A DNA stretch of 23,269 bases from a virus. The notes beneath the pieces were generated by a model. The model saw only the letters and a list, made by a program, of their open reading frames with translations, was not told the origin of the DNA and searched no databases. Shown here in pieces: positions 3,334 through 23,013 of the stretch (within the stretch, counting starts at the first letter, position 1; each line of letters begins with the position of its first letter). The stretch is from positions 1 through 23,269 of the IMG/VR virus record IMGVR_UViG_3300029798_000037; one strand, 5' to 3'. Position numbers and translations under genes: made by a program.

Positions 3334-5151
3334 GTGGCCCTGCCGGTTCCATCGCCGTCGTACGCGCCGGCCTCCACGGTAACCAATAAGTCCATCACCA
3401 CCTCTTCCGGTCCTGCTCAAGGCGGTGGAGGAGGCGGTGGCGGAGGCGGCGCTGTCACCTCGGTCAACGGGCAGACGGGCAGCGTTGTCTTGGGGGCCAG
3501 CGATGTAGGGGCCGATCCGGCAGGGTCAGCGGCTACCGCACAGGCCATAGCCGAGCAGTACACCCGAACGGCGGGCATCCAGTACGCCACGGGTGGCAAC
3601 GTGCAAGTGCAGTTCGGGTTGGGCGTTATCGGCGTCATCCAGCTTTCGACCAACATCGTGTTCTCTCCGGCTGGATCGGCGGGCATCCTCCCGGGCTGCT
3701 GGCAGTCCATCATCCTGGCCAATAACACCGCTGGTGCATTCACCATCACGAAGAACCCCAATTGGGTGGGGGTGGTGCCGACGTCCATTGCACCGGGTCA
3801 GACGATGGCCATTTTCCTGCAGGGATCGACGACCCCGCCGGCCTCTACTGATGCCAACATAGAGGTGGACGTGGTGGTTACCACTCAGGCGACGACTTCA
3901 GGTGTAACGCAGATAGTCGCTGGTACGGGCATAACGGTTTCCCCTGGTGGCGGGACTGGCGTTGTAACTGTCAACGCAACCGGAACCACGGCGGGCCGAA
4001 CGGTATTCAACATCGAAACGTATGGGGCCATTGCTAACAGCTCTGGCGCAGCTGCGGGTAATGTAACCGCGATAAACGCAGCGGTAGCGGCAGCGGTGGC
4101 CTTTGGTGGAGGAACGGTCTATTTCCCGGACGGGTTTTACTACACCAACGCTGTTCTAAGCTACACCCCGAACGCCAACATCGCTTTTATCGGTAATGGC
4201 TTGATGGTCTCGGGCATCATTCAAGTGACCGCCGGAGCTGACGGTCTAAAGGTGGATCAGTCAGCTTTTGGGAGTGTCGGCGTCGAGGTCCGCGACCTGA
4301 GTTTCATATGCGCCAGCGGAACCGCCTGTGGCAACGGATGCACCCTTATTGGCGGAGGCAATCAAGATCAGCGTTCGGTGTGGGCCCGAAATCTCCTGTT
4401 CATCGGCGGCAACGGCTGGATTAACGGTCTCGTGCTCCCCGCGGGCCCGGCGCCCATCGGGGGATTGATCGAAAACATCTATGGCCGAGGACAGAATGTT
4501 TTCGGTAACTCCCTGAGCACCGGTTCGCTTATTTACATCGAGAACCCGGTTAATACCACGATTTCAAAGTGGTATTCGTGGGGCTTCAAAAGCGGACTGC
4601 ACATAAAGTCGGTTGCGGGTGTAGGCGACGGTACTTTTCAGGGAGTAAATATATCGGACTTCTTGGTGAACGGCGTTAGCGTCGGGATTGACCTAGACGG
4701 CACCTCCGTATCCGGCGGAGTAGCTGGAGCCATCCAGATCAACAACGGGGTGATCGACCTCGGGGGCACCGCCGGTGGCGTAACCGGAAGCTTCGCCATC
4801 CGGGCTGACACGGTGGATGAGATCAAGATTCACCAAGTTAATTGCACCATCAATGGTGCGAGCCCGACCGGCATCTCGATCCTGAACAAAGGTAAGGCCT
4901 CGATCTCACATTGCGACATACTCACTAGCGGCAGCGGTGGATCCATGCAGGGAATCGTCTTCAGCAACGGCGCCAACAACATCGTTCACGACAACACCTT
5001 TTTGGGCTGGACGGTGGACGTGGATATGTCCCAGACCGGCGTTACCAACAGCGTCTGCCACCACAACACCGACCTGCTGACTTCAGGCGGCCTAATCACA
5101 ACTGCCACCCACGCCGGGTCTGGCAACCAGATCGGCACCTCGATCGCGTGA
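3334..5151 (+). CDS. Tailspike protein with pectate-lyase-like beta-helix
   Basis: This 605-aa protein uses a GTG start three bases after the previous stop. Domain order: a short Pro/Ser/Thr-rich N-terminus (1-29); ten consecutive glycines (30-39); a VTSVNGQTGSVVLGASDVGA segment (41-60) typical of phage tail fibre and spike linkers; a beta-rich region to about 190; a VAGTGITVSPGGGTGVVTV linker (195-213); and from about 224 a pectate-lyase-superfamily beta-helix opening with VFNIETYGAIANSSG and TAINAAVAAAVAFGGGTVYFPDG. The repeated N-x-I and G-I-x-L turns continue to the end. Such proteins form trimeric receptor-binding spikes that often cleave surface polysaccharide. The catalytic residues cannot be fixed by eye. 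It sits between the portal and scaffold genes, not at the end of the tail module, and the second half uses more AT-rich codons (ATA, GTA). Confidence 0.88.
   Translation: MALPVPSPSYAPASTVTNKSITTSSGPAQGGGGGGGGGGAVTSVNGQTGSVVLGASDVGADPAGSAATAQAIAEQYTRTAGIQYATGGNVQVQFGLGVIGVIQLSTNIVFSPAGSAGILPGCWQSIILANNTAGAFTITKNPNWVGVVPTSIAPGQTMAIFLQGSTTPPASTDANIEVDVVVTTQATTSGVTQIVAGTGITVSPGGGTGVVTVNATGTTAGRTVFNIETYGAIANSSGAAAGNVTAINAAVAAAVAFGGGTVYFPDGFYYTNAVLSYTPNANIAFIGNGLMVSGIIQVTAGADGLKVDQSAFGSVGVEVRDLSFICASGTACGNGCTLIGGGNQDQRSVWARNLLFIGGNGWINGLVLPAGPAPIGGLIENIYGRGQNVFGNSLSTGSLIYIENPVNTTISKWYSWGFKSGLHIKSVAGVGDGTFQGVNISDFLVNGVSVGIDLDGTSVSGGVAGAIQINNGVIDLGGTAGGVTGSFAIRADTVDEIKIHQVNCTINGASPTGISILNKGKASISHCDILTSGSGGSMQGIVFSNGANNIVHDNTFLGWTVDVDMSQTGVTNSVCHHNTDLLTSGGLITTATHAGSGNQIGTSIA
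3421..3450 (+). repeat. Poly-glycine codon run in the tailspike
   Basis: Ten glycine codons in a row (GGC, GGT and GGA mixed) encode residues 30-39 of the tailspike. The mixed codons suggest that the peptide, not simple DNA slippage, is what is kept. It probably forms a flexible linker between a short virion-anchoring N-terminus and the rest of the spike. Confidence 0.9.
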
Positions 5152-5375
5152 AACCGAAGGCTCGCCTCCTTACCAAAACCACGGCCTATTCTGACGGTAG
5201 GGTGGTCAAAGAGATTTTCAGTCAACCCAATCCAACATGCCAGACTCCATCATCACAGACCCTAACGTCGCGGCCCCGGTCGCGGACGCACCCGATCCCG
5301 GCACAGCCGCTCCCGCCTCATCTGTCGTTTCTGAACCCTGGAGCAAGGGGTTCTTCGGAGACGACGGCTCCATAA
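5148..5375 (+). CDS. Doubtful small ORF overlapping spike end and scaffold start
   Basis: A GTG at 5148 overlaps the spike stop as GTGA, the same junction seen between several true gene pairs here. The first 28 or so residues (MKPKARLLTKTTAYSDG and on) look like ordinary protein and cover the otherwise empty 5152-5236 gap. After 5237 the frame becomes a Pro/Ser/Thr/Arg-rich string typical of an out-of-frame reading of the scaffold gene, which it overlaps by 139 bases. It may be a short coupled peptide, a decayed gene whose end was replaced, or a chance frame. No ATG start, Shine-Dalgarno or family match supports it. Confidence 0.25.
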   Translation: MKPKARLLTKTTAYSDGRVVKEIFSQPNPTCQTPSSQTLTSRPRSRTHPIPAQPLPPHLSFLNPGARGSSETTAP

Positions 5376-6178
5376 ACGCCAAGGTATTCGATAAGGCGCC
5401 GGAGGACCTGCGACCGCTGGCGAAGGACATCGAGCGGTTCAAGACCGCCGACGACTTCTTCAAGGCTTACAACGAGCAAAAGAGCCTGCTGGGGAAGAAG
5501 GGCTTCATCGAGCCCCCCGGCGAGAAGGCGACGGAGGTGGAGCGCAAAGCCTACGCCGATCAGGTGAGGAAGATCAACGGTGCCCCGGAAAAACCGGAGG
5601 GCTACGCGCTCGCCAAGCCCGAGGGCCTGCCGGATACGATGTGGAACGCGGACCTTGCCTCACAGGTGGCAAAGATCGCCCACGAGGAAGGGGCCAGCCC
5701 CAAACTGATCCAGAAGATCGCCGCCGCCCAGATACAGGCATTCCAGAAGGACGCTGAGGCGGTCAAGGTGGCTGAGGCGCAATGGTTCGAGGGTCAGGAC
5801 AAGTTGATCCGGGAAGCCGCGGGCAAGGACGGTCTGGAGTACGGGAAGGCTAAGGACCTGGCGGAACGGGCCGGGCGACGACTCGGGATTGACCCCAGCA
5901 ACCCCGTGATGAAGAACGCCTCGGTCTTTGGAGCCCTGATGCGGGCGGCCAAGATGATGAGCGAGGACACGCTGATTTCAGGCGACACGACCGGCACCGG
6001 CCTGTCGGGCAACGTGACCGCCGAGTCGGCCAAGAAGTCTTACGACGCCATTATGACCGACAAGAACAACCCGGATTACAAGGTGTACTGGAACCGGGAC
6101 AAGAAGGAGAAGCCGGCGGACGTGGATGCGATTCGCGCCAAGGTCCGCAAGTTGCAGGAAATCGCCCACAAGGGGTAA
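5237..6178 (+). CDS. Capsid assembly scaffolding protein, T7 gp9-like
   Basis: This 313-aa protein is acidic and Pro/Ala-rich at the N-terminus (about 1-40), then charged and mostly helical. Recognisable family elements are FKTADDFFKAYNEQKSLLGK at about 70-90 and GAPEKPEGYALAKPEGLPDT, which is the usual motif of phage capsid scaffold proteins. A long helical stretch follows (KIAHEEGASPKLIQKIAAAQ and on) and a basic C-terminus (about 283-313, YWNRDKKEKPADVDAIRAKV). In T7-like phages the C-terminal helices touch the major capsid protein, and the scaffold leaves the prohead on maturation. The length matches T7 gp9 (307 aa). No Shine-Dalgarno is visible before ATG 5237. Five genes now separate it from the major capsid gene apart from the small 6183 ORF, whereas in T7 they are adjacent. 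Confidence 0.88.
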   Translation: MPDSIITDPNVAAPVADAPDPGTAAPASSVVSEPWSKGFFGDDGSINAKVFDKAPEDLRPLAKDIERFKTADDFFKAYNEQKSLLGKKGFIEPPGEKATEVERKAYADQVRKINGAPEKPEGYALAKPEGLPDTMWNADLASQVAKIAHEEGASPKLIQKIAAAQIQAFQKDAEAVKVAEAQWFEGQDKLIREAAGKDGLEYGKAKDLAERAGRRLGIDPSNPVMKNASVFGALMRAAKMMSEDTLISGDTTGTGLSGNVTAESAKKSYDAIMTDKNNPDYKVYWNRDKKEKPADVDAIRAKVRKLQEIAHKG

Positions 6179-6182
6179 CGCC

Positions 6183-6653
6183 ATGGCAACCAACGAGGAC
6201 CTGTATCGGGAAATGGTGGATCAGGAGCGCCGCGACGACAAGGTGTACGGTCAGGACTACACCATGAAGGCGGCAAAGATCACGCCCAAGGGGCCTGATC
6301 CCGACAAGGGCAGGGAGAGGTTCAAGAAGGAGATTGCGCCCGTCCTGGAGGCCCGCAGACGCCTTTCTGCTGGTTTGCCAGCCACGACCAATCCCCTGGT
6401 GAACCTGTACCTCAAGGTCATGGGCAAGGACAAGCTGGAGGAGCTGCCCGAGACGGAAATTGTGGACAGGGCAAAATCGTTCGGCTTGATTGGCCCCTCC
6501 GTGGAGGACATCCAGAAAATGATCGCCCAGGACCCGGACAAGTTCCGCGACCTTTCCCGCTCGGCGCCCGAGGTGCGTCCGGTTCAGGTCCGGCGCAAGA
6601 CGACTGAGGATGTCATCGGAGAAGCGGAGGCCCGCCATGAAGGCACCGTTTAA
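6183..6653 (+). CDS. Hypothetical phage protein, 156 aa
   Basis: I chose the ATG at 6183, four bases after the scaffold stop and preceded by a purine-rich AAGGGG, over an earlier in-frame ATG at 6126 that would overlap the scaffold and add a Ser/Arg-rich tail. The protein is highly charged and probably helical: MATNEDLYREMVDQERRDDK at the start, a Lys-rich stretch, TTNPLVNLYLKVMGKDKLEE in the middle, and IDKFRDLSR-like charged segments after it. No family is recognised. It contains no membrane helix or catalytic motif. The end overlaps the GroES gene by 17 bases. Its position between scaffold and GroES suggests an assembly role or a scaffold companion, which is inference. Confidence 0.75.
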   Translation: MATNEDLYREMVDQERRDDKVYGQDYTMKAAKITPKGPDPDKGRERFKKEIAPVLEARRRLSAGLPATTNPLVNLYLKVMGKDKLEELPETEIVDRAKSFGLIGPSVEDIQKMIAQDPDKFRDLSRSAPEVRPVQVRRKTTEDVIGEAEARHEGTV

Positions 6654-6930
6654 GCCCCTCGGTTCGCGCATCCTTGTCGAAAAGGAGCCCTACCAGCCGA
6701 CCATGGAGGGCGGCATCCTCATCCCGCAGAGCGCCGACAACACCCCGCGTTTCAGCCCCACGGTCCGCGCCAAGGTTCTGGCGGTCGGCAGTAAGGTGCA
6801 GGACATCAAGCCGGGAGACACGATTGCCCTGAAACGGGTGGCCGGGGACGACATGGAAATTGACGGTCGCCTGCTCACCCTTGCTCGAGTACCCATCGAA
6901 ATCGTCGGACTCATCGAATCCAACCCATGA
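6637..6930 (+). CDS. groES: Phage-encoded co-chaperonin GroES (Cpn10 family)
   Basis: The product is 97 aa, the same length as E. coli GroES. It starts FKPLGSRILVEKE, matching the Cpn10 opening of PLxDRxxV type. A mobile-loop region follows at about 17-40 with the GroEL-binding GGI tripeptide at 25-27 (MEGGILIP). Then come the beta-barrel motifs AKVLAVGSKV (45-54), IKPGDTIALKR (58-67) and a final VPIEIVGLIE strand. I start it at ATG 6637, behind a purine-rich AGCGGAGG at 6623-6630. An upstream in-frame ATG at 6610 would add nine residues inside the preceding gene. GroES caps the GroEL folding chamber. T4 gp31 shows that phages can supply their own cap for folding the capsid protein. It sits between scaffold and capsid genes and overlaps the next gene as ATGA. 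Confidence 0.9.
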   Translation: MKAPFKPLGSRILVEKEPYQPTMEGGILIPQSADNTPRFSPTVRAKVLAVGSKVQDIKPGDTIALKRVAGDDMEIDGRLLTLARVPIEIVGLIESNP

Positions 6931-7646
6931 GTGATAAAATAAAGATCGTCATCGCCACTCCCTTGAAGGACGCGAGGACGCTAAACCAACCGCACCCGTT
7001 CTTTCAAAAGACGGCTGAGCAGATCGCCCAGATCCAGGACAGCCCCTACGAGTTCTATTTTGCCACGATGGAGGGAGGAATCTGCCACGCCCGCAACAAG
7101 ATGGTGCAGGCGGCAAAGAAGTTGGGCGCCCAGCAGATCGTCTGGTGGGACTACGACATCGAGGCCACGGTGGACGACATGATGAAGCTGGTCACGAACA
7201 AGCTGCCCATCGTCGGGGCGCTCTACACCACCCGAGAGGACCGGGGCCATTGGGTCGCCAACTTCATGCACGAGGTGGAATTGCAGGAAGGCGGGATGCT
7301 GCAAGTCATCGAGTCGGGCTGCGGGCTCAAGAAGTACCACATGGAGGTGTTCTACATCCTCGACAAGGTTTACGAGGGGATCGCCTACACCGACCGGGAC
7401 ACGGGCGAGCGCCTGCACGGCTACTTCCAGCAGATCGTCATGCAGACGGACTTGAAGCCGGACGGAGACTGGATCACGGAAGATTTCTTCTTGGACCACC
7501 TGTGCCGCCACAGCCGGACGAAGGGCATGGGCATCTTCGTGGACACGACGATCAAGGTGAAGCACCGCGGGCCGGATGGCACCCTGTACCCGACTGGAGA
7601 CTGGCCGCCGGTCCCGATTGACGAAAAAGTCACCGGGATCGCGTGA
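6927..7646 (+). CDS. GT-A glycosyltransferase-like protein 1
   Basis: The 239-aa product opens with a beta strand, KIKIVIATPLKDARTLN. It has the ICHARNKMVQAAKKLGAQ helix of nucleotide-sugar-binding GT-A folds and a metal-binding DxD motif, WWDYDIEA, with DYD at 75-77. PIVGALYTTRED (94-105) follows, then an acidic TEDFFLDHLCR (184-194) and a terminal VKHRG (211-215), a common metal or donor-binding histidine position. These features fit family-2-like glycosyltransferases found in phages. Donor and acceptor are unknown. It begins in an ATGA overlap with GroES and ends in a GTGA overlap with the next glycosyltransferase, so translation is probably coupled. It could modify virion proteins, host surface glycans or DNA. 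The fold call is fairly sure; the substrate is not. Confidence 0.82.
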   Translation: MSDKIKIVIATPLKDARTLNQPHPFFQKTAEQIAQIQDSPYEFYFATMEGGICHARNKMVQAAKKLGAQQIVWWDYDIEATVDDMMKLVTNKLPIVGALYTTREDRGHWVANFMHEVELQEGGMLQVIESGCGLKKYHMEVFYILDKVYEGIAYTDRDTGERLHGYFQQIVMQTDLKPDGDWITEDFFLDHLCRHSRTKGMGIFVDTTIKVKHRGPDGTLYPTGDWPPVPIDEKVTGIA

Positions 7647-8278
7647 AGATCACCGCCCTCACCTGCACCTTCCAGCGCCCGCAGGCGTTTGAGTTGTGCA
7701 AGATGTACGTCGCCCGGCAGACGCGCCAGCCCGACCAATGGCTCATTCTGGACGGCCCCGAACCCATGACGGAGAAGGTCCTCAAGGCTTTCCGGGAAAA
7801 CCTCATCACCGGGGATGCCGTAATTTTCGCCGAAGATGACGACTGGTTTGACCCCAAGTGGTTCGCGTGGTGCGCCGAACGGTTGGAGAAGTACGACATC
7901 GTGGGCCAAGGCTTCGCTCTCTACTACAACGTGGCGCAACGGTGGTGGTCCGACTGCTGGAACCGGAGGCACGCGAGCCTCTGCCAGACGGCCATCCGTT
8001 CCGAAATGTTCGACCGCCTCTGCAACGTGATCGAGGCATTCGACAACCAGTGGTTTGACACCCGGCTGTGGCGCTTGGAATGCCGCCGTTTCCTCGACCT
8101 GCCCCGCGAGAATAAGCTCGTGATCGGGATCAAGGGGATGCCCGGCATCCGGGGCTACTCCCGCGAGCACCGCAAAGCCGCCCTGCATGAAGTCCACCCA
8201 GACCCAAGCATGGCGAAACTCTGGCAACTGATCGGCCAGGATGCCGAAGCCTACCTGCCTCACTACCAACGAAAATGA
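7643..8278 (+). CDS. GT-A glycosyltransferase-like protein 2
   Basis: The product has 211 residues from a GTG start that overlaps the preceding stop (GTGA). The N-terminus, MKITALTCTFQRPQAFELC, is a classic family-2 glycosyltransferase first strand and helix. The second strand reads QWLILDGPEP, and the DxD region is AVIFAEDDDWFDPKWF with EDDDW at 64-68. The C-terminal half has NQWFDTRLWR and GIKGMPGIRGYS (162-173) followed by an EH pair, a pattern I know from phage glycosyltransferase-like proteins. There is no membrane segment. It differs from its neighbours at 6927 and 8847 beyond the fold, so these are three separate enzymes and not recent duplicates. Substrate unknown. Confidence 0.82.
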   Translation: MKITALTCTFQRPQAFELCKMYVARQTRQPDQWLILDGPEPMTEKVLKAFRENLITGDAVIFAEDDDWFDPKWFAWCAERLEKYDIVGQGFALYYNVAQRWWSDCWNRRHASLCQTAIRSEMFDRLCNVIEAFDNQWFDTRLWRLECRRFLDLPRENKLVIGIKGMPGIRGYSREHRKAALHEVHPDPSMAKLWQLIGQDAEAYLPHYQRK

Positions 8279-8850
8279 TTACCACCGACTTCAACGAGCA
8301 CACCGCCGCCCACGGCAAGAACTGGACAAAGTGGCTCGGCCACCTGATCGGAAAGACGCACGTTTCCGGCCTTGAGCTTGGAACATGGAAAGGCGACTCC
8401 GCGGAATGGATGCTGACCCACATCTTTACCGGGTTCGCCAACAACTACGAATGCGTGGACACGTTCGAGGGTTCCGAGGAACACGCGCTGGCCGGGATAG
8501 ACTGTTCCGCCTTGGAGCAGGAGACGCGGGAGAAGCTGAGAAAGTTCTCGCCCTTCGTGAAGATCCACAAAACGACCTCGGACGCCTTTCTCCGTTCATG
8601 CCCGCGCATGTTCGACTTCATCTACGTGGACGCGGCCCATGACTCGATGAACGTGCTGCGGGATGCCGTGCTGGCCTTCGACCTCCTGAAACCCAATGGC
8701 ACGATGATCTTTGACGACTACCAGTGGACGGTCATGCCGAACCCGCTGGATTGCCCGAAGATCGGGGTGGACGCCTTCGTCTCGGCCTACGCCAAGCAGA
8801 TCGAGGTGATCGGGATGGGCTGGCAACTCGCCGTCAGGAAGGTCGCATGA
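8275..8850 (+). CDS. Class I SAM-dependent methyltransferase-like protein
   Basis: The 191-aa product has SAM-binding motif I as GLELGTWKGDSAEW (32-45), an acidic strand-2 end at VDTFEGSEE (61-69), the motif FDFIYVDAAHDSMNVLRD (113-130), and a strand-5 region LLKPNGTMIFDDYQW (137-151). The YVDAAH and FDDY pair is typical of the Methyltransf_24 / cephalosporin-hydroxylase-like group, which acts on small molecules or sugars. No DNA-methylase motif (DPPY or PCQ) is seen. The ATGA overlaps on both sides place it inside the glycosyltransferase cassette, so sugar O-methylation, for instance of a glycan built by its neighbours, is the natural guess. That guess is inference from context. Confidence 0.85.
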   Translation: MITTDFNEHTAAHGKNWTKWLGHLIGKTHVSGLELGTWKGDSAEWMLTHIFTGFANNYECVDTFEGSEEHALAGIDCSALEQETREKLRKFSPFVKIHKTTSDAFLRSCPRMFDFIYVDAAHDSMNVLRDAVLAFDLLKPNGTMIFDDYQWTVMPNPLDCPKIGVDAFVSAYAKQIEVIGMGWQLAVRKVA

Positions 8851-9590
8851 AACTGGAAATCCATATCTTGGCCCACGACCACGAGGACAAGCTCCCTTGG
8901 GCGGTCGGTCACTACCTGTCCCTCGGTGCCAAGGTGATCGTCCACGACGGCGGCCCTAGCTTCACCCTCGAAGTGATGGGAGCGGAAACGAGGAAGTGGG
9001 ACACGGGCGGACAGCTCAATGACGAGCTGGCGATGAACCTCAAGAATGAGTGCTGGAAGGGAACGGAAGCCGATTGGTTGGCGGTGATGGACTGCGACGA
9101 ATTGCTCTACTTCCCGAAGGGTGTCGAGGAAACCCTGTCCACGTACTCCCGCCTCGGGGCCGCCGTCATCAAGCCCCATGGCTACGAAATGTTCTCCGAC
9201 GAGATGCCGAACATCACCCGCCCATTGATCGAACAGGTGAAGCACGGAGCCCCGGACAACAAGTGGTACGGCAAGCCCGTCCTGTTCAGCCCGAAAAAGG
9301 TGGCAGAGTCCGGTTTCGGCATGGGAGCCCACGAGAGCAGGCCGATCCTCCACAGCGGACGGGAACTGTACGTCGGCTCCGGCTGGCCCCAGGCCAACCC
9401 CCCGACCTACCTCCTGCACTACCACCAGATCGGGCCGATCGAGTACGTGGCGCGGCGGTACGACGAGACGCGGACCCGCCTAGCGGCCATCAACGAGAAG
9501 CACGGGTGGGGTAATTTCAAAAAAGGTCTGGAGCACGCTCAGGAGAAGCGGGATTACATCCTCCCGTTGCTGCGGCAGGTGGTGGGGTAA
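8847..9590 (+). CDS. GT-A glycosyltransferase-like protein 3 (Glyco_tranf_2_4 type)
   Basis: I start this at ATG 8847, which overlaps the methyltransferase stop as ATGA. An upstream in-frame ATG at 8724 would add 41 residues that lie wholly within the methyltransferase gene in another frame. The 247-aa product has the pattern of the family-2 subgroup Glyco_tranf_2_4: an opening strand LEIHILAHDHEDKLPWAVGH, a second strand AKVIVHDGG, the metal-binding DWLAVMDCDELLYFP with DCDE at 82-85, GAHESRP (160-166) and LLHYHQIGPIEY (189-200). This is the last gene before the 177-base gap. Its acceptor is unknown; capsid, spike, host glycan or DNA are all possible. Confidence 0.85.
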   Translation: MKLEIHILAHDHEDKLPWAVGHYLSLGAKVIVHDGGPSFTLEVMGAETRKWDTGGQLNDELAMNLKNECWKGTEADWLAVMDCDELLYFPKGVEETLSTYSRLGAAVIKPHGYEMFSDEMPNITRPLIEQVKHGAPDNKWYGKPVLFSPKKVAESGFGMGAHESRPILHSGRELYVGSGWPQANPPTYLLHYHQIGPIEYVARRYDETRTRLAAINEKHGWGNFKKGLEHAQEKRDYILPLLRQVVG

Positions 9591-9767
9591 ATAGCTACTT
9601 GACAGTCCGAATCGGACAGTCCAACTAAGGGCAGAGGGTTCAATTGGCACTCGCGCTTAGCGCGATCAGGCGGCTCTCGGATTTAACTCGTCCGAGAAGC
9701 GGATCGGCCTAACAGCCGGCACTCCGGGGGGAGGACGGAACACAACGTTAGCGACCTTTCAAAAACT
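9591..9767 (+). promoter_or_regulatory. Non-coding leader upstream of the major capsid gene
   Basis: This is the longest gap in the window (177 bases) and holds no credible ORF. From left to right: a TTGACA at 9599-9604 identical to a sigma70 -35 box, but without a convincing -10 box 16-18 bases on; an inverted repeat GTCCGA-A-TCGGAC at 9605-9617; a hairpin TCGCGC-TTA-GCGCGA at 9651-9665; a hairpin TCTCGGA/TCCGAGA at 9675-9697 with a 9-base loop; a small CGGC/GCCG stem at 9705-9718; and a GGGGGGAGGA purine tract near 9725-9734. That tract lies about 33 bases before ATG 9768, too far for a standard Shine-Dalgarno. The region may carry a capsid promoter and a structured 5' leader. Both are inference. 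Confidence 0.6.
9599..9622 (+). repeat. Direct and inverted repeat cluster in the capsid leader
   Basis: GACAGTCC occurs at 9601-9608 and again at 9615-9622, 14 bases apart. The bases between form the inverted repeat GTCCGA-A-TCGGAC (9605-9617). The second copy is itself centred on GGAC-A-GTCC. The same GGACAGTCC is found at 22992-23000 ahead of the tail fibre gene. The arrangement could bind a protein dimer or serve as part of a phage promoter. Confidence 0.5.
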
Positions 9768-10676
9768 ATGCCTTCAGGCGTAACAACCCTTCCTCCGAAC
9801 TACCAGCCGGCGTTTGACAACATCTGGCGGGAGATCATGGCGCAGCAAATCGACCATCGCTTGGCCGGTTACTACATCATGGACACGGTGGCGGGCAACA
9901 TGAAGCGGTATAACGAGATGGGTTCGCAGTCCTACGCGATGTCCCAGAAAACGGCCCGTGCGGCCGTCACTGAGCCGTCCGATGTTCCGACCGCGATCCG
10001 TTGGGTTATCCCGACTGGATACCAGAAAGCCTCGTGGATTGATGAGGACGATGCCGTCCTCCTCGGTACACTTCCCGACCCGGAAAACCAGATCGCCGTC
10101 AATCACGGCATCGCGGTCAACCGGCTCAAGGACCAACTGATTATCAACGCCGCGCTCGGCGTGAACTATACGGGCGCCCAGGCCAACGTCCAGACTCCGC
10201 TTCCCTCTGCCCAGCAGATCGGCGTGCAGTTTGGCGGGTCTGTGAACACCGGCATGACACTCGCCAAGGTTCTTGAGGCCAACTACCTTCTGGACTCGAA
10301 CGATGTGCCCGAGCCGGATCGGGTCATGGTGTACGCGGCGAAGCAGCTCTATGACCTGCTTCTCAACGTGGACCAGGTTGACTCGGTTCTCTACGTCGAT
10401 GTCCGCGCTCTCATGCAGGGTCGCTTCACCGAGTTCAGTGGCTTCCACTGGATTCGCACGCAGCTCCTCCCGACCGTGGGTACGCCGGCCATCCGCTCGT
10501 GCATCGCCTACCAGAAGAAGTTCATCATTCTGGGTGAGACGAAGGGCATGATGACGAAGATCGACATCCTCCCGCAGCAGAGCCACGCGATTCAGGTGCG
10601 TACCACCTACTTCGCCGGGGCGACGCGGCTTGAGGAAGCCGGTGTGGTTCAGATCGCGTGCGACGAAACACAGTGA
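9768..10676 (+). CDS. Major capsid protein, podovirus type
   Basis: This 302-aa protein fits the podovirus major capsid family (Phage_capsid_2-like, HK97 fold). Supporting features are the opening NYQPAFDNIWREIMAQQIDH, which corresponds to the N-arm, RWVIPTGYQKASWIDEDDAV in the E-loop region, LINAALGVNYTG-like stretches in the spine helix and beyond, and the C-terminal P-domain/A-domain run KQLYDLLLNVDQVDSVLYVD, then FIILGETKGMMTKIDILPQQ. T7 gp10A is 345 aa, so the length is in range. No Shine-Dalgarno lies close to ATG 9768; the bases just before it are CTTTCAAAAACT. No alternative start is in frame upstream. No frameshift extension like T7 gp10B is visible; a separate gene follows instead. 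Confidence 0.93.
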   Translation: MPSGVTTLPPNYQPAFDNIWREIMAQQIDHRLAGYYIMDTVAGNMKRYNEMGSQSYAMSQKTARAAVTEPSDVPTAIRWVIPTGYQKASWIDEDDAVLLGTLPDPENQIAVNHGIAVNRLKDQLIINAALGVNYTGAQANVQTPLPSAQQIGVQFGGSVNTGMTLAKVLEANYLLDSNDVPEPDRVMVYAAKQLYDLLLNVDQVDSVLYVDVRALMQGRFTEFSGFHWIRTQLLPTVGTPAIRSCIAYQKKFIILGETKGMMTKIDILPQQSHAIQVRTTYFAGATRLEEAGVVQIACDETQ

Positions 10677-17463: not shown

Positions 17464-20400
17464 ATGGCCTTCGACCCTACGTCCGCCACGCTGGACGCAC
17501 CGGCCAAGGCACCGGCCCAAGTTCAGCCTGCATTTGACCCGCAGACAGCGATTCCAGACAATCCTAGGGCTTCCGTGGCCCCTACCCCTACCACGGCACC
17601 ACCCGGCCCAAATTGGGCCAATTACTACGGGGGATTGGACGGGATAGACAACCGCCTTTCACCGGAGAAGGCGCAGGCGCTTAAGTTGCTGGACACGGAC
17701 CCAAATCCGAAGGAAGCGCGGGCAAGGGCGATTAACCAGGCTTACGTTTCTACCCATCTTAAAGGGATGGACCCTGCCACCATCCGGGAAAACTGGCAGG
17801 CGGTTAAGGATTCCTACGCCAAGAATGCGCTCGGGATAGACTCCAAAGACATATCAGACACAACGCTTTACGGTAAGATAGCAGACAGGTTCAAGCCCGC
17901 CACGGATGGGAAACCGGCCGGCGGCGGTAGCTTCTGGGATGCCCTTAGAGCAGTCGGCCCCGGCCAGACCGTGAATCTGGCGTTTGCCGCTACCTCCATG
18001 AAGGAGCTTCCAGAGGCCCCGCACGACCTCCCTAACATCAACATTCCGGGAATTGGCAATCCGGCGGTCATCGGCGGGGTTTACAACGCCATGCGCCCCT
18101 TCATCGCCCAGATCGGTACGCCTGCCAGTATTCCGATGATGGGCGGATCCGAGCTTCTTAGCATGGCCCGAGAGTACCCGGCGGCGAAAGCCGCCTTGAT
18201 GGTCATGAGTGGCGGTTTCGCTGCCCTGATGGGTCCGGCGGCGGTCGAATCGGCCAAGAGAACTACGGGGGTGGTTTCCGACCCGAAAGCAAGCTTGCAG
18301 GACAGGGTTCAGGCCGGCGTGGACACATTCACCAAGGTGGCGATGACGGTGATTCCCGCCCTGCATGTGGCTGAGATCGCAGTCCCTGGGGTGCTGGGGG
18401 CTATGAAGGGAAAGCCGATTACGGAGGCCTCGGAAATCATCAAGGACGCCGTAGCCAAGGCAGATGACATTTCACCGGAAAAGGAACAGACGGCGCTTCA
18501 TGCCGCCCAGCAGATTGAAGCTGTGGCGAAGGCTGGGCACCCTGATGCCCCGCCCGCTCCAGCCGGTACGCCAACCTCTCCGCTTGAACCTGCTGAAGCG
18601 GCGATCACCCCAACCACCGCACCAAAGGCAGGCGCTCCCACGGACTACGGCATTGCCGAGCGGGTTTCGGATGTTCGAGGCAAGGCTGGTCAGATCGACG
18701 CCCCTGAGGCTGGAGAAGGCATCGCTCCGGCTACTTCGGTCGAGCGCGGTAGAACGCTGCTATCCCAAGGGGCCAACCCGGAAGAAATCCTTTCCGAGTT
18801 CAACAAGACAAACCGTTTTTCATCTGACGACCTGGCTGTACTCCGGGCGCGAGGCGAGGAATTAGCCCAAGCCGCCAGCGAGACGGCGGACAAGTTCGGC
18901 CCGGAATCTCCGGAATACAAATCGGCCGCCAAGGCGGATTCCGATTGGACGAAGGCAATCAAGCCCGTTCAGACCGAATGGGCCAAGGCTGGCGCAGCGC
19001 AACAGGGTTCAACCGACATTGACACGGGTGACTTCCACTCGCTTGCCACCGCGTTCAAGCAAATCTCTGGCCGTGACTTCACACCCGAGGAAGCCGGCAA
19101 GGCCGAGGAAATTGCCGCTGGAGTAAAGGACGCATCACACGATGCGGAGACAGCCAAGGCCCAAGTCATCGAGGAACTTAAGAAAAAGGCTCCAGCCCGA
19201 AAGGTGACGGCTGGCAGCAGTGTGGCCAAATTCATCTCCGAACAGGCCGATGCCGCCCGCGCTCGCGTCAAAGCCCGCATGGCGAAGGGCGCTCTGTTCT
19301 CAGGCGTGGACCCTGTTGACCTGACGGACCATGCCATCATCGGGGCGGACTACATCGCCAAGGGTGTTACCAAGTTTGGGGACTGGTCGGCTGAGATGGT
19401 GAAGGAGTTCGGGGAGAAAATTAAGCCGTACCTGCCCGACATTTTCAAACAGGCAAACGACCGGATTGATGATTCCATCGTGTCGGACCATCTGGCCTCC
19501 CGAAAAGCGTACTTGGAGGGAAGGATCAAGAAACTGTCCGAAAAGATTGATACGGGGGACTTGAGCCCGGAGCCCACCAAAGCCAATCGCCCGGAGGTTG
19601 CCGAGCTGGAAAAACTGGCCCTCCAACGAGACAACCTACAGTCGCAGCTACAGGAGCTGCGCGACACCGCCAAGAAGGTGGAGGATTTGGAGAAGGCTGT
19701 GGCCGAGAAAGAGCGGAAGATAAAAGAGGGCGACCTTACCACCAAAGGCACCGCCGTAAATCGGCCTTCCGTTGAAGCTCTGGAAAAGCTCAAGCAGGAG
19801 CGAGATGCCCTGAACCGCGAACTGACCAAGGCTAGGACGGAGGCGAAAAAGCCATCTGAGGCGGAGCAAATCGCCAAGAAGGTGGAGGCCATCAAGAAAA
19901 CAATCGCTGAAAAGAAAGAACAGCTCCAAACCGGGGACATTGAGGCCAAGGGCCAGAAGGTAAGCCGCCCAGAAGTCGGACCGATTGAGGAAGCAAAACA
20001 GGAGCTGGACAGAGTTAACAAGGAATTAGCCGACGCCCGTAAAGCCGCTAGGGATGCAGAAAATGCCCCAGAGAAAGGCTCTGTTGCCGATGTGTGGCAG
20101 CGAGCCAAGGATTACCTAGAAGCAGGAGAGGACGACTTTGACGACCTGCGCCACAAGATCGCCGCCGACACCGGCCTCCCCGTATCCGAGGTTACAAAGA
20201 AGCTGGCTGGGCCGAAGAAGGTCCGGGTGATGACGAACGAAATGTATTCGAAGATGTCGAAACGCCGCGACCTCATCCAGCAGGCTAATTACTGGCTCAA
20301 GCAAACGGCCCAGCCGGGCTGGCAGCGGTTGCTTAGCAAAGTCCCGCGAGCGTTCTTCACCGCCAAGGTTTTCGGTCACGGTACGGTGGGCATGATTACC

Positions 20401-21618
20401 CACGCCGGGATAAATATGTTCGACCCGACCGAATGGGGCATCTACTGGCCAGAGTTCGTCAAGCAGTACAAGATGATCGGCTGGCATGACCAAGCGTCTT
20501 TTCACGAGCGGGCGATGCAGGACCTTTCCAGAGATAGGAACTACGTTACCGCTCGCAGGGCGGGACTGGCCAACAGCGTGACGAAGGCGATGGACGACTA
20601 CGAGAAAGGCGTCATGTCCGGCAACACCATCATTGGAAAACTCGGCATGGCCGGAAACCGGGGGTTCGACACGCTCAAGATTTACCGTCAGGCCCGGTTC
20701 AACCAGACGTGGGACGCCCTCACGCCCGAGATGCGGACGCCGGAAATGGCCAAACTTCTGGCGGACGACGTGAACCACTCGACCGGATTCGTTAAGGCCA
20801 ATTTTCCGAAGGCGGTGAGCAATGCCCTATTTGCTCCGAAGCTGGAAGCTTCCCGGTGGGCGTTCTTGGCGGGTGATCCCATCCGGGACGCCAAGACATT
20901 CGCAGGCTGGAAAACGGCCACGCCCGAAGAAAGGCTGACGGCTATTTCAAACGTGAAGCGCCGCGCCATCATCGCCGGGACGTACCTCACTCTTTTGGCA
21001 GCGAATCAAGGCATGTTGCAGGCCACCGATAGTAAGCAGAAGATCAACTTCAGCGACCCGCGTAAGCCCGATTTCCTAGCCTTCAAGGGGTTTGGATACG
21101 AATTGGGGGTCGTCGGCCCTACCATCAGCCTTTTCCGGTATCTCTCGAACATGCTTCATGCCTCGATTATGACGCGGGCTGGATCGGAATTGAAGGACAG
21201 TCGTGCCGAGGAAATGGGAATCCTGACGATGAAGTACCTGCGGGGGAAACTCAGCCCATTCGGAAGCGTAGTTGCCGACGTGGCCACTCAGTCCGACTAT
21301 CAAGGCCGACCCCTTCCGTTCTCAGGCGACAAGGTGCCGACCTACCTCAAGAAAGAGGGGACCGGAGCTTACACGTATTCCGAGTACATCGGGGAACACG
21401 TTGAGCCGATCCCGTTTGAGGACGCCATCCACGAGGTCTGGGGCAATCAGGGCATGAGCGCCAAACGGATCAACGACTGGATGGCAGCGTTGGCCGTGTT
21501 CGCCATCGTCGGCGGAACGGGTGCCCGCGTCAGCAAGGACACGCAGCCCGAACAGGACGCAAAGGCAGCCGATAAAACCGGCCGCAACATCAACACCACG
21601 AAGCGAAAGAAGCCATGA
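17464..21618 (+). CDS. Giant internal virion protein, T7 gp16-like
   Basis: This 1384-aa protein is the largest in the window and starts one base after the previous stop. Layout: a Pro/Ala-rich N-terminus (1-60), a helical region LSPEKAQALKLLDTDPNPKE (about 66-85), hydrophobic runs such as AALMVMSGGFAALMGPAAV (about 240-258) and VAMTVIPALHVAEIAVPGVL, a Pro/Ala linker (about 360-390), three coiled-coil repeats (about 684-862), then a more conserved C-terminal half with FGHGTVGMITHAGINMFDPT, YLTLLAANQGML and AALAVFAIVGGTGA. It is helical and has membrane-active-looking segments. T7 gp16 is 1318 aa. No lysozyme or transglycosylase Glu motif (such as ES-x-N) is found, so cell-wall cleavage would have to come from elsewhere. 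Confidence 0.85.
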   Translation: MAFDPTSATLDAPAKAPAQVQPAFDPQTAIPDNPRASVAPTPTTAPPGPNWANYYGGLDGIDNRLSPEKAQALKLLDTDPNPKEARARAINQAYVSTHLKGMDPATIRENWQAVKDSYAKNALGIDSKDISDTTLYGKIADRFKPATDGKPAGGGSFWDALRAVGPGQTVNLAFAATSMKELPEAPHDLPNINIPGIGNPAVIGGVYNAMRPFIAQIGTPASIPMMGGSELLSMAREYPAAKAALMVMSGGFAALMGPAAVESAKRTTGVVSDPKASLQDRVQAGVDTFTKVAMTVIPALHVAEIAVPGVLGAMKGKPITEASEIIKDAVAKADDISPEKEQTALHAAQQIEAVAKAGHPDAPPAPAGTPTSPLEPAEAAITPTTAPKAGAPTDYGIAERVSDVRGKAGQIDAPEAGEGIAPATSVERGRTLLSQGANPEEILSEFNKTNRFSSDDLAVLRARGEELAQAASETADKFGPESPEYKSAAKADSDWTKAIKPVQTEWAKAGAAQQGSTDIDTGDFHSLATAFKQISGRDFTPEEAGKAEEIAAGVKDASHDAETAKAQVIEELKKKAPARKVTAGSSVAKFISEQADAARARVKARMAKGALFSGVDPVDLTDHAIIGADYIAKGVTKFGDWSAEMVKEFGEKIKPYLPDIFKQANDRIDDSIVSDHLASRKAYLEGRIKKLSEKIDTGDLSPEPTKANRPEVAELEKLALQRDNLQSQLQELRDTAKKVEDLEKAVAEKERKIKEGDLTTKGTAVNRPSVEALEKLKQERDALNRELTKARTEAKKPSEAEQIAKKVEAIKKTIAEKKEQLQTGDIEAKGQKVSRPEVGPIEEAKQELDRVNKELADARKAARDAENAPEKGSVADVWQRAKDYLEAGEDDFDDLRHKIAADTGLPVSEVTKKLAGPKKVRVMTNEMYSKMSKRRDLIQQANYWLKQTAQPGWQRLLSKVPRAFFTAKVFGHGTVGMITHAGINMFDPTEWGIYWPEFVKQYKMIGWHDQASFHERAMQDLSRDRNYVTARRAGLANSVTKAMDDYEKGVMSGNTIIGKLGMAGNRGFDTLKIYRQARFNQTWDALTPEMRTPEMAKLLADDVNHSTGFVKANFPKAVSNALFAPKLEASRWAFLAGDPIRDAKTFAGWKTATPEERLTAISNVKRRAIIAGTYLTLLAANQGMLQATDSKQKINFSDPRKPDFLAFKGFGYELGVVGPTISLFRYLSNMLHASIMTRAGSELKDSRAEEMGILTMKYLRGKLSPFGSVVADVATQSDYQGRPLPFSGDKVPTYLKKEGTGAYTYSEYIGEHVEPIPFEDAIHEVWGNQGMSAKRINDWMAALAVFAIVGGTGARVSKDTQPEQDAKAADKTGRNINTTKRKKP
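19513..20050 (+). repeat. Three tandem coiled-coil repeats in the gp16-like protein
   Basis: Three units of about 55 residues start at residues 684, 742 and 807. Each has a Lys/Glu helix, a GD(L/I) turn, a short Lys/Thr/Pro loop ending (N/S)RP-x-V, and a second helix rich in Leu, Glu, Gln and Arg (TGDLSPEPTKANRPEV, EGDLTTKGTAVNRPSV and TGDIEAKGQKVSRPEV). Each unit looks like a helical hairpin. DNA identity is limited, so the duplication is old or the peptide is selected. Confidence 0.8.
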
Positions 21619-21728
21619 GTGAATGCCCCGAAGAAGTCTTTGAAGAACAGGAAGAGGACGTGAGCCGACATGGATGCCTCGTGCCTACAGGCGAAGAGGC
21701 CGAAGGCGGGGAGGCTGACGATGAGTGA
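21615..21728 (+). CDS. Very acidic 37-aa peptide gene
   Basis: This short ORF begins in an ATGA overlap with the gp16-like stop and ends inside the start region of the ATP-grasp gene (21721). It encodes 37 residues, 15 of them Glu or Asp, with two Cys (positions 4 and 21) and very few basic residues: MSECPEEVFEEQEEDVSRHG, then CLVPTGEEAEGGEADDE. The overlaps on both sides match the coupled gene borders elsewhere in the window, which argues for translation. No family is recognised. It could be a small virion or regulatory peptide, a substrate of the ATP-grasp enzyme that follows (speculative), or a non-coding linker. Confidence 0.45.
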   Translation: MSECPEEVFEEQEEDVSRHGCLVPTGEEAEGGEADDE

Positions 21729-23013
21729 GAACCTAAAGACCCGCACTGCGCTCGTTTGCTGCGGCCCCTTGTTCGTTTCTCTCGCCGAACGCATGGCGCG
21801 GGATTTTGCCAAAGTTTATCTCCACGTACCGTTCTCCGGGTCGTTCCCCACCTGGGCGCAGCGCAACGTCGGCTACGGTCTGGAAAACGTGGAGCTGGTT
21901 CAGGACGTATGGGGGCCGCACTTGGGGGATGTGGACCTTTTCGTGTTCCCGGATTTGGCCCATGCCGAGCTGCAAATCCAATTGGAGACGATGGGCAAAC
22001 GGGTGTGGGGCTGCCGCAACGCGGAGGAACTGGAGAATTACCGGGAACTCTGCAAAGAGATCATGGAGGAAAATGGGCTGCCGGTCCAGCCATGGAAGAT
22101 CGTCAAGGGTGTCACGGCCCTGCGCGAACACCTCAAGACCCACCCGGACCAGCACGTCAAGATCGACCTATACCGGGGCGTAACCGAGACGTTCTTTTCT
22201 CCCGCCTACGAGATCGTCGAGCCCAAGATCGACGCCATCGCCCACACGCTCGGACCGGGCAAGGAGATGCTGGAATTTATCGTTGAGGACGACCTCCCCG
22301 ACCGGGTGGAAGTCGGGCTGGACACCTACTGCATCGACGGTGAGTTTCCCGAAAATACCTTGTTTGGGCTGGAAATCAAAGACCTGGGATATGTGGGTCA
22401 GATGGTGAAGTGGGGGAAGATCCCCGAGCCCCTGCGCCGCTGGAACGAGACCATGGCCCCGCTCCTCCGTGAATACGGCTGCCGGGGGTCCCTGTCGAAT
22501 GAGATACGGATCGGCAAGGACAAGGTGCCTTACATGGTGGACGCGACCATGCGGGCGCCGAGCCCTCCTTCCGAACTCTGGCAAGAGTTGTTCACCAACC
22601 TGTCGGAGATCATCTGGGAGGGGGCCAACGGGGTTTTGGTGGAACCCAAGCCCGCAGGCAAATGGGGGGTGGAGGTCATCCTGAAATCCCATTGGGCCGA
22701 GGAAAACTGGCAGACAGTCAGCTACCCCGACAAGTACGCGAACCAGATCAAGCTCTACAACTGTGTCGTTATCGACGGCCAACGGTCGGTCATATCCTTC
22801 CACGAGGAAATGATAGAGATCGGGGCCGTGGTGGGGTGGGGCGACACCTTGGAGGAGGCGATGGAGCACGCCCGCGAGGCGGGGGAATCCATCGAGGGTT
22901 ACGGCATCAAGTTCTCCATGGGAGCCATCGAACAGGCGCAGAAGCAGATCGAGGAACTGGCGGCCTTGGGCGTCTCACCTTTCAGCATTGCGGACAGTCC
23001 GAAAACCTCTTAA
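21721..23013 (+). CDS. ATP-grasp ligase-like protein, PurD-like architecture
   Basis: I start this at ATG 21721, behind a GGGGAGG about seven bases upstream. ATG 21670 is in frame and would add 17 residues. The 430-aa product has a pre-ATP-grasp N-domain (LVCCGPLFVSLAERMARDFA, and VDLFVFPDLAHAELQIQLE), the join GKRVWGCRNAEELENYRELC, where PurD and similar enzymes have their domain link, and an ATP-grasp core. The core includes VKIDLYRG (147-152 region), MLEFIVEDDLPDRVEVGLDT, NEIRIGKDKVPYMVDATMRA with D274 and R278 in the metal-binding position, and SPPSELWQELF. The C-domain IGAVVGWGDTLEEAMEHARE resembles the end of glycinamide ribonucleotide synthetase. ATP-grasp enzymes join a carboxylate to an amine or thiol through an acyl phosphate. 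The substrate is unknown. Its place between ejection proteins and tail fibre is odd for a purine enzyme. Confidence 0.8.
   Translation: MSENLKTRTALVCCGPLFVSLAERMARDFAKVYLHVPFSGSFPTWAQRNVGYGLENVELVQDVWGPHLGDVDLFVFPDLAHAELQIQLETMGKRVWGCRNAEELENYRELCKEIMEENGLPVQPWKIVKGVTALREHLKTHPDQHVKIDLYRGVTETFFSPAYEIVEPKIDAIAHTLGPGKEMLEFIVEDDLPDRVEVGLDTYCIDGEFPENTLFGLEIKDLGYVGQMVKWGKIPEPLRRWNETMAPLLREYGCRGSLSNEIRIGKDKVPYMVDATMRAPSPPSELWQELFTNLSEIIWEGANGVLVEPKPAGKWGVEVILKSHWAEENWQTVSYPDKYANQIKLYNCVVIDGQRSVISFHEEMIEIGAVVGWGDTLEEAMEHAREAGESIEGYGIKFSMGAIEQAQKQIEELAALGVSPFSIADSPKTS
22991..23003 (+). repeat. Second copy of the GGACAGTCC element
   Basis: CGGACAGTCCGAA near the end of the ATP-grasp gene shares CGGACAGTCC with 9613-9622 and GACAGTCCGAA with 9601-9611 in the capsid leader. 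It lies 23 bases before the tail fibre ATG. It is inside coding sequence, so codon use could also explain it. Confidence 0.35.

Follow-up and report, generated by a model that had tools for sequence, protein, structure and literature searches.

To our knowledge, glycosylation of the virion has been established experimentally in only a few tailed phages. The mycobacteriophages Che8 and Rita are reported to glycosylate their particles, in which capsid and tail-tube subunits were seen to carry glycans (Freeman et al. 2023, as cited in PMC11256854 and PMC12619734), and the related mycobacteriophage Maravista carries putative glycosyltransferases near the 3' end of its genome (PMC11256854). In the chlorovirus PBCV-1, virus-encoded glycosyltransferases and methyltransferases (A064R, A061L and A111/114R) make and O-methylate the N-glycan of the capsid (PMC9614988). 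As far as these accounts go, the locus described here comes closest in function to mycobacteriophage virion glycosylation and to the capsid glycans of chloroviruses. It shares with the mycobacteriophage systems the use of phage-encoded glycosyltransferases and, as reported there and proposed here, the modification of virion proteins; unlike those systems, in which glycans were observed, it lies in the head module of a podovirus, includes a methyltransferase and is known from its genes alone. A search of 50,697 phage records, among which Che8-type phages are assumed to be included, did not reveal homology to the described mycobacteriophage-type enzymes. With PBCV-1 the locus has in common the combination of viral glycosyltransferases and methyltransferases, but PBCV-1 is an algal virus with another gene order and with three domains fused in A064R.

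The DNA analysed (the window) is a virus contig of 23,269 bases. Its cassette of three putative glycosyltransferase genes (GT1 to GT3) and one methyltransferase gene (MT) is flanked by a portal gene (PF12236) upstream and the gene of the major capsid protein (MCP) downstream, and directly adjoins a GroES gene:

5237-6178: gene called scaffold by position only; it matches phrog_3742, a label that carries no function
6637-6930, plus strand: GroES/Cpn10 co-chaperonin (PF00166, E 1.1e-10; phrog_3188), directly preceding the cassette, its stop overlapping the start of GT1
6927-7646, plus strand: GT1, putative GT-A-type glycosyltransferase, 239 aa (Anp1 in relatives, DYD, E185-D186, fold comparison)
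7643-8278, plus strand: GT2, putative family-2-like glycosyltransferase, 211 aa, GTG start (PF00535, EDDDW)
8275-8850, plus strand: MT, class I SAM-dependent methyltransferase, 191 aa, probably a sugar O-methyltransferase (PF13578); homologue beside GT2/GT3 in many phages
8847-9590, plus strand: GT3, putative family-2-like glycosyltransferase, 247 aa (PF13704, DCDE)
9599-9604, plus strand: TTGACA box, candidate -35 element at the start of the capsid leader and outside the cassette (TTGAC 52-57 nt before hairpin P1 in 10 of 10 lineages)
9649-9734, plus strand: conserved structured RNA leader of the capsid gene (P1 at 9651-9665 plus further helices; covariance model, 75 bits); the cassette ends just upstream
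9768-10676, plus strand: MCP (PF19821, E 1.8e-51)

Successive genes from GroES to GT3 overlap by four bases at all four junctions (ATGA, GTGA, ATGA and ATGA), at the same coordinates as an initial annotation of this DNA had given. That annotation had placed the cassette between scaffold and capsid genes; its location in the head module is borne out by the portal, GroES and MCP matches, but the name scaffold is positional only. A further contig (3300022555_000208) is 99.89% identical to the window over 20.3 kb and is practically the same virus assembled a second time. Because of this re-assembly, and because several divergent lineages have the same layout, the gene arrangement is no assembly accident. 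No transmembrane-like segment occurs in any cassette protein tested (maximum 19-residue hydropathy 1.21), and all of them look soluble.

The metal-site motifs of the three putative transferases, D75-x-D77 (DYD) in GT1, E64-D-D-D67 (EDDDW) in GT2 and D82-x-D84-E85 (DCDE) in GT3, are invariant or nearly so among closer relatives. For GT1, the weakest case for GT-A membership of the three, D75, D77, E185 and D186 are invariant in 11 sequences. A Pfam search with the window GT1 itself gave no credible family match, and matches to VanX and YbjQ were set aside as chance; five of seven GT1 relatives match Anp1 (PF03452). The AlphaFold model of GT1, built from an alignment of six to seven sequences, is of low confidence (pLDDT 51). 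When this model was compared by Foldseek, it matched GT-A-type phage proteins in a viral library (E 2e-6); its best match in the PDB is weak and falls on domain 1 of PBCV-1 A064R (E about 1e-3); given the quality of the model, this match is no sign of shared ancestry. In GT2, E64, D66 and D67 are invariant in 24 sequences. The window protein scores under the cut-off of PF00535 (E 3.5e-4; 21.0 bits against 23.3), which its homologues in two other records (L058 and L177) exceed, and heparosan synthase B came up in a search with the GT2 profile (E 2e-4). The GT2 model, likewise from six to seven sequences, is poor (pLDDT 44), and the fold search with it gave nothing informative. The best fold matches of the poor GT1 model are GT-A proteins.

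GT3 has D82, D84 and E85 (DxDE) invariant in 26 sequences. In the window it falls just under the PF13704 cut-off (E 1.1e-5; 26.2 bits against 27.5), which homologues surpass with up to 48.2 bits (E 1.6e-12). Its profile matches GmaR, the flagellin glycosyltransferase of Listeria (E 1.1e-8), a second PDB glycosyltransferase, 7msk (E 2.5e-3), and, weakly, SunS-type peptide glycosyltransferases. The likeness to GmaR and SunS is limited to the nucleotide-sugar half, a region that does not determine the acceptor; in general, the profile matches of GT2 and GT3 lie mostly in this half and give no firm indication of what the acceptor is. On family, profile and motif evidence, which agrees with the proposal of three different GT-A-like proteins, GT1, GT2 and GT3 are supported as GT-A-type glycosyltransferases, each with a DxD-type metal site and a Rossmann-like nucleotide-sugar domain. 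MT, annotated before as a class I methyltransferase, matches Methyltransf_24 (PF13578) well over the cut-off (E 5.7e-16; 59.7 bits against 26.3) and is probably a sugar O-methyltransferase. It also matches phrog_2675, labelled DNA methyltransferase (E 1.2e-9); this label was dropped, since the Methyltransf_24 match is much stronger. The profile searches suggested by the initial annotation thus returned glycosyltransferase and methyltransferase families for the four proteins or, in the case of GT1, for its relatives, and no credible unrelated folds.

To survey gene neighbourhoods, we used the capsid protein and each of the enzymes as queries against viral contigs. Most contigs are incomplete, so that absences are weak evidence; those of L013 and L050 start or stop inside the cassette. 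In site-spanning contigs of carriers with 76-87% capsid identity, GT1, GT2 and GT3 lie between GroES and MCP. Identity to the window among site-spanning carriers is 41-46% for GT1, 54-57% for GT2 and 45-60% for GT3, at 62-87% for MCP. The most divergent of them (L015, 62% capsid identity) has, of the set, GT1 only (37%) in the same place, together with other glycosyltransferase-like genes. MT is the more variable member: it is located between GT1 and GT2 in L003, and other methyltransferases stand in its place in the L010, L011, L012, L014 and L018 types. The cassettes of these five types are enlarged to six to eight or nine genes, and extra genes in relatives encode FkbM (PF05050), a nucleotide-sugar dehydrogenase (PF00984), DUF3431 (PF11913) and more Methyltransf_24 proteins. 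A further extra gene has GG-LGN, R-x-GDY-like and STFSWW motifs, which we take to resemble those of GT11 alpha-1,2-fucosyltransferases; it had no Pfam or PDB match that would confirm a GT11 assignment. Of the four genes, GT1, GT2 and GT3 recur together beside the capsid gene, but MT is moved or replaced.

In eleven contigs whose capsid protein is 82-83% identical, the cassette is missing and the capsid leader comes straight after GroES. On the MCP tree, some inner forks of which are weak, these contigs nest within the carriers; the simplest reading is secondary loss, and hence a dispensable cassette. The genes might instead have been scattered in related phages, as the initial annotation had allowed when proposing a linked unit, but they stay together, and at the empty sites GroES directly precedes the capsid gene. 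Judged from gene content and order, the three putative transferases and MT are a real unit within the head module: a conserved, swappable and dispensable cassette.

The set also occurs elsewhere. G006 and G007 are two members of the wider group whose portal and capsid are of the same families. Both of them, G007 as far as its layout was read, have it upstream of terminase and portal; G006 has a double GroES immediately 5' of the capsid gene, and in G007 GroES is separated from the capsid gene by a small gene and by an HNH-like gene on the opposite strand. Phages with other capsids also carry GT2-MT-GT3. One of a different type, L058, has these three genes flanked by portal/MuF genes on one side and, on the other, by a virion structural gene (phrog_771), probably the capsid gene of that phage. 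In five further phages (L069, L080, L082, L109 and L110) the cassette is on the strand opposite to terminase and neighbouring large virion-type genes. L080 encodes a homologue of the large protein at 17464-21618 of the window (phmmer, E 2e-230), so these opposite-strand phages are not wholly unrelated to the window virus. A heptosyltransferase-type GT9 gene (PF01075) accompanies the set in L080, and similar-looking proteins occupy its position in the other four. A search for the PF05065 capsid family in other carriers gave no match. Downstream of a phage portal gene, Stenotrophomonas sp. 278 (L177) has a GT2 homologue (35%). L175, close to the L014 phage, is in an Armatimonadetes metagenome-assembled genome from a fen, a weak hint at the host because the binning may be wrong. 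Across the 50,697 GenBank phage records the cassette is essentially absent: tblastn with GT1 and GT2 gave no match, GT3 matched only two uncultured 735-kb records of equal length, and MT had a homologue in one spring-water phage, where it stands by itself amid early-type genes, as well as one match that was weak and partial.

The best explanation, and on balance a probable one, is a mobile modular cassette that assembles an O-methylated oligosaccharide on a candidate virion-protein acceptor. This reading draws on the place in the head module of more than one phage type, the three conserved active sites, the swapped finishing modules and the lack of membrane segments. Encoded between the GroES gene and the capsid leader, the soluble GT1 to GT3 would add sugars one after another from host nucleotide sugars in the cytoplasm late in infection, and MT would cap a sugar with an O-methyl group from host SAM. 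The likeliest acceptor would be a protein exposed on the virion, whether capsid, decoration protein or spike, yielding particles with a small methylated oligosaccharide; exchange of MT and addition of sugar genes, with the transferases kept, would diversify the outer glycan. The benefit could be shielding, adhesion or stability. We infer the common pathway, the sequential action, the late timing, the virion acceptor and the benefit. Two observations count against this reading: consistent differences between the MCPs of cassette-bearing and cassette-free phages are confined to 11 positions, at none of which a glycosylation site has obviously been gained, and in the five opposite-strand phages the cassette is not collinear with terminase and the large virion-type genes. 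More tentatively, the locus may be a combinatorial capsid-glycan locus that gives environmental podoviruses lineage-specific O-methylated capsid oligosaccharides, with a three-transferase core and exchangeable finishing modules, by analogy with the capsid glycans of chloroviruses, and that relocates as a whole from one head-gene site to another and from phage to phage. If the cassette does glycosylate virions, some uncultured podoviruses would commonly have capsid glycans of their own making, and these would be modular and evolvable. The natural pairs with and without the cassette, at 82-83% capsid identity, would make any benefit testable.

The families of GT2, MT and GT3 also act in ordinary surface-polysaccharide clusters, so the cassette might instead alter surface glycans of the infected cell (O-antigen, capsule or teichoic acid) and thereby exclude rival phages or keep progeny from sticking to debris. 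GT9 in L080 and its look-alikes in the other opposite-strand phages would fit such a role. However, no membrane segment was found in the tested proteins, no flippase was seen by eye in the cassettes read, and the position amid the head genes implies that expression is late, at a stage where exclusion would help little. Systems of the GtrABC seroconversion type have a GtrA flippase and membrane-anchored transferases, and GtrA (PF04138) was found in none of 16 records. We regard this surface-glycan role as unlikely. Less probable still is a cargo of unlinked accessory genes at a permissive site that share no pathway and benefit the host or change metabolites. In its favour are the loss of the set, its varying position and its exchanged methyltransferases, but GT1, GT2 and GT3 are kept together with intact active sites in all site-spanning carriers except the most divergent, and GT2, MT and GT3 move together into phages with different capsids.

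Glycosylation of DNA is a classical role of phage glycosyltransferases (PMC12619734), and the phrog_2675 match of MT could point the same way, towards enzymes that glycosylate hypermodified phage DNA in the manner of the T4-type DNA glucosyltransferases. Those enzymes are likewise phage-encoded, but here the genes lie in the head module and not with replication genes, MT fits Methyltransf_24 much better, and a thymidylate-synthase-type hydroxymethylase (PF00303) was found in none of 15 related records (20-73 kb, possibly incomplete). We consider this role very improbable. Among the substrates named by the initial annotation, DNA and the host envelope are thus without support from PF00303, GtrA or membrane segments, and a virion protein is left as the best candidate.

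The capsid gene is preceded by a conserved leader of its own. The start of the TTGACA-like box ranges from 8 nt upstream to 22 nt downstream of the point where the preceding gene ends (62 nt in L015), and that gene may be GroES, GT3, FkbM or DUF3431; no consensus -10 box was recognised in the leader. Compensatory changes occur at five of six pairs of hairpin P1. Helix P2 was counted on a hand alignment, as the MAFFT alignment (A7) misaligns it in some rows. For the whole leader structure the covariation score is 0.37, compared with 0.126 +/- 0.025 after shuffling (0 of 500); slid controls scored no higher than 0.105. Across 30 sources, the covariance model found the leader only upstream of capsid genes of this clade, and not in G006, G007 or other phages. 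The leader is a feature of the capsid gene and not of the cassette. Should the box be a promoter, the cassette would be expressed at least partly apart from the capsid gene, which weakens the strict coupling to virion production that had been proposed for the cassette; so do the sets upstream of terminase and portal in two relatives and on the opposite strand in several other phages. An Rfam scan of positions 9500-9900 gave no match, and this unexpected leader would be a second testable control element.

Six further features were noted, as follows.

Window 9599-9734, conserved and structured leader RNA preceding the capsid gene and carrying a TTGACA box
L173 2085-2807 and L174 3928-4473, apparently doubled GroES genes ahead of the capsid gene, seemingly composed of two Cpn10-like halves each
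Window 3334-5151, spike-like protein, 605 aa
Window 17464-21618, large protein, 1384 aa, phmmer match in phage L080
Window 21670-23013, protein whose similarity to purD/ATP-grasp falls below threshold (E 0.0017)
L177 7998-8675, GT2 homologue (35%) in the sequenced Stenotrophomonas sp. 278

The leader shows strong covariation, matches no Rfam family and is found in cassette-bearing and cassette-free phages alike. In L174, an HNH-like gene on the opposite strand lies between the apparently doubled GroES and the capsid gene.

The spike-like protein has no Pfam or PHROG match, and its conservation with L003, a carrier of a related capsid gene, is limited to one short stretch. The large protein is common to the window and phage L080 (E 2e-230), which carries the same glycosyltransferase set as the window; a search of L080 for a PF19821 capsid gene found none. 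Homologues of the 21670-23013 protein are encoded a short way downstream of the cassette in both L064 and L071, two phages with GT2/GT3 and a portal-like gene that differs from the window's. In L177, a phage portal gene lies upstream of the GT2 homologue, and this Stenotrophomonas locus possibly represents a cultivable relative.
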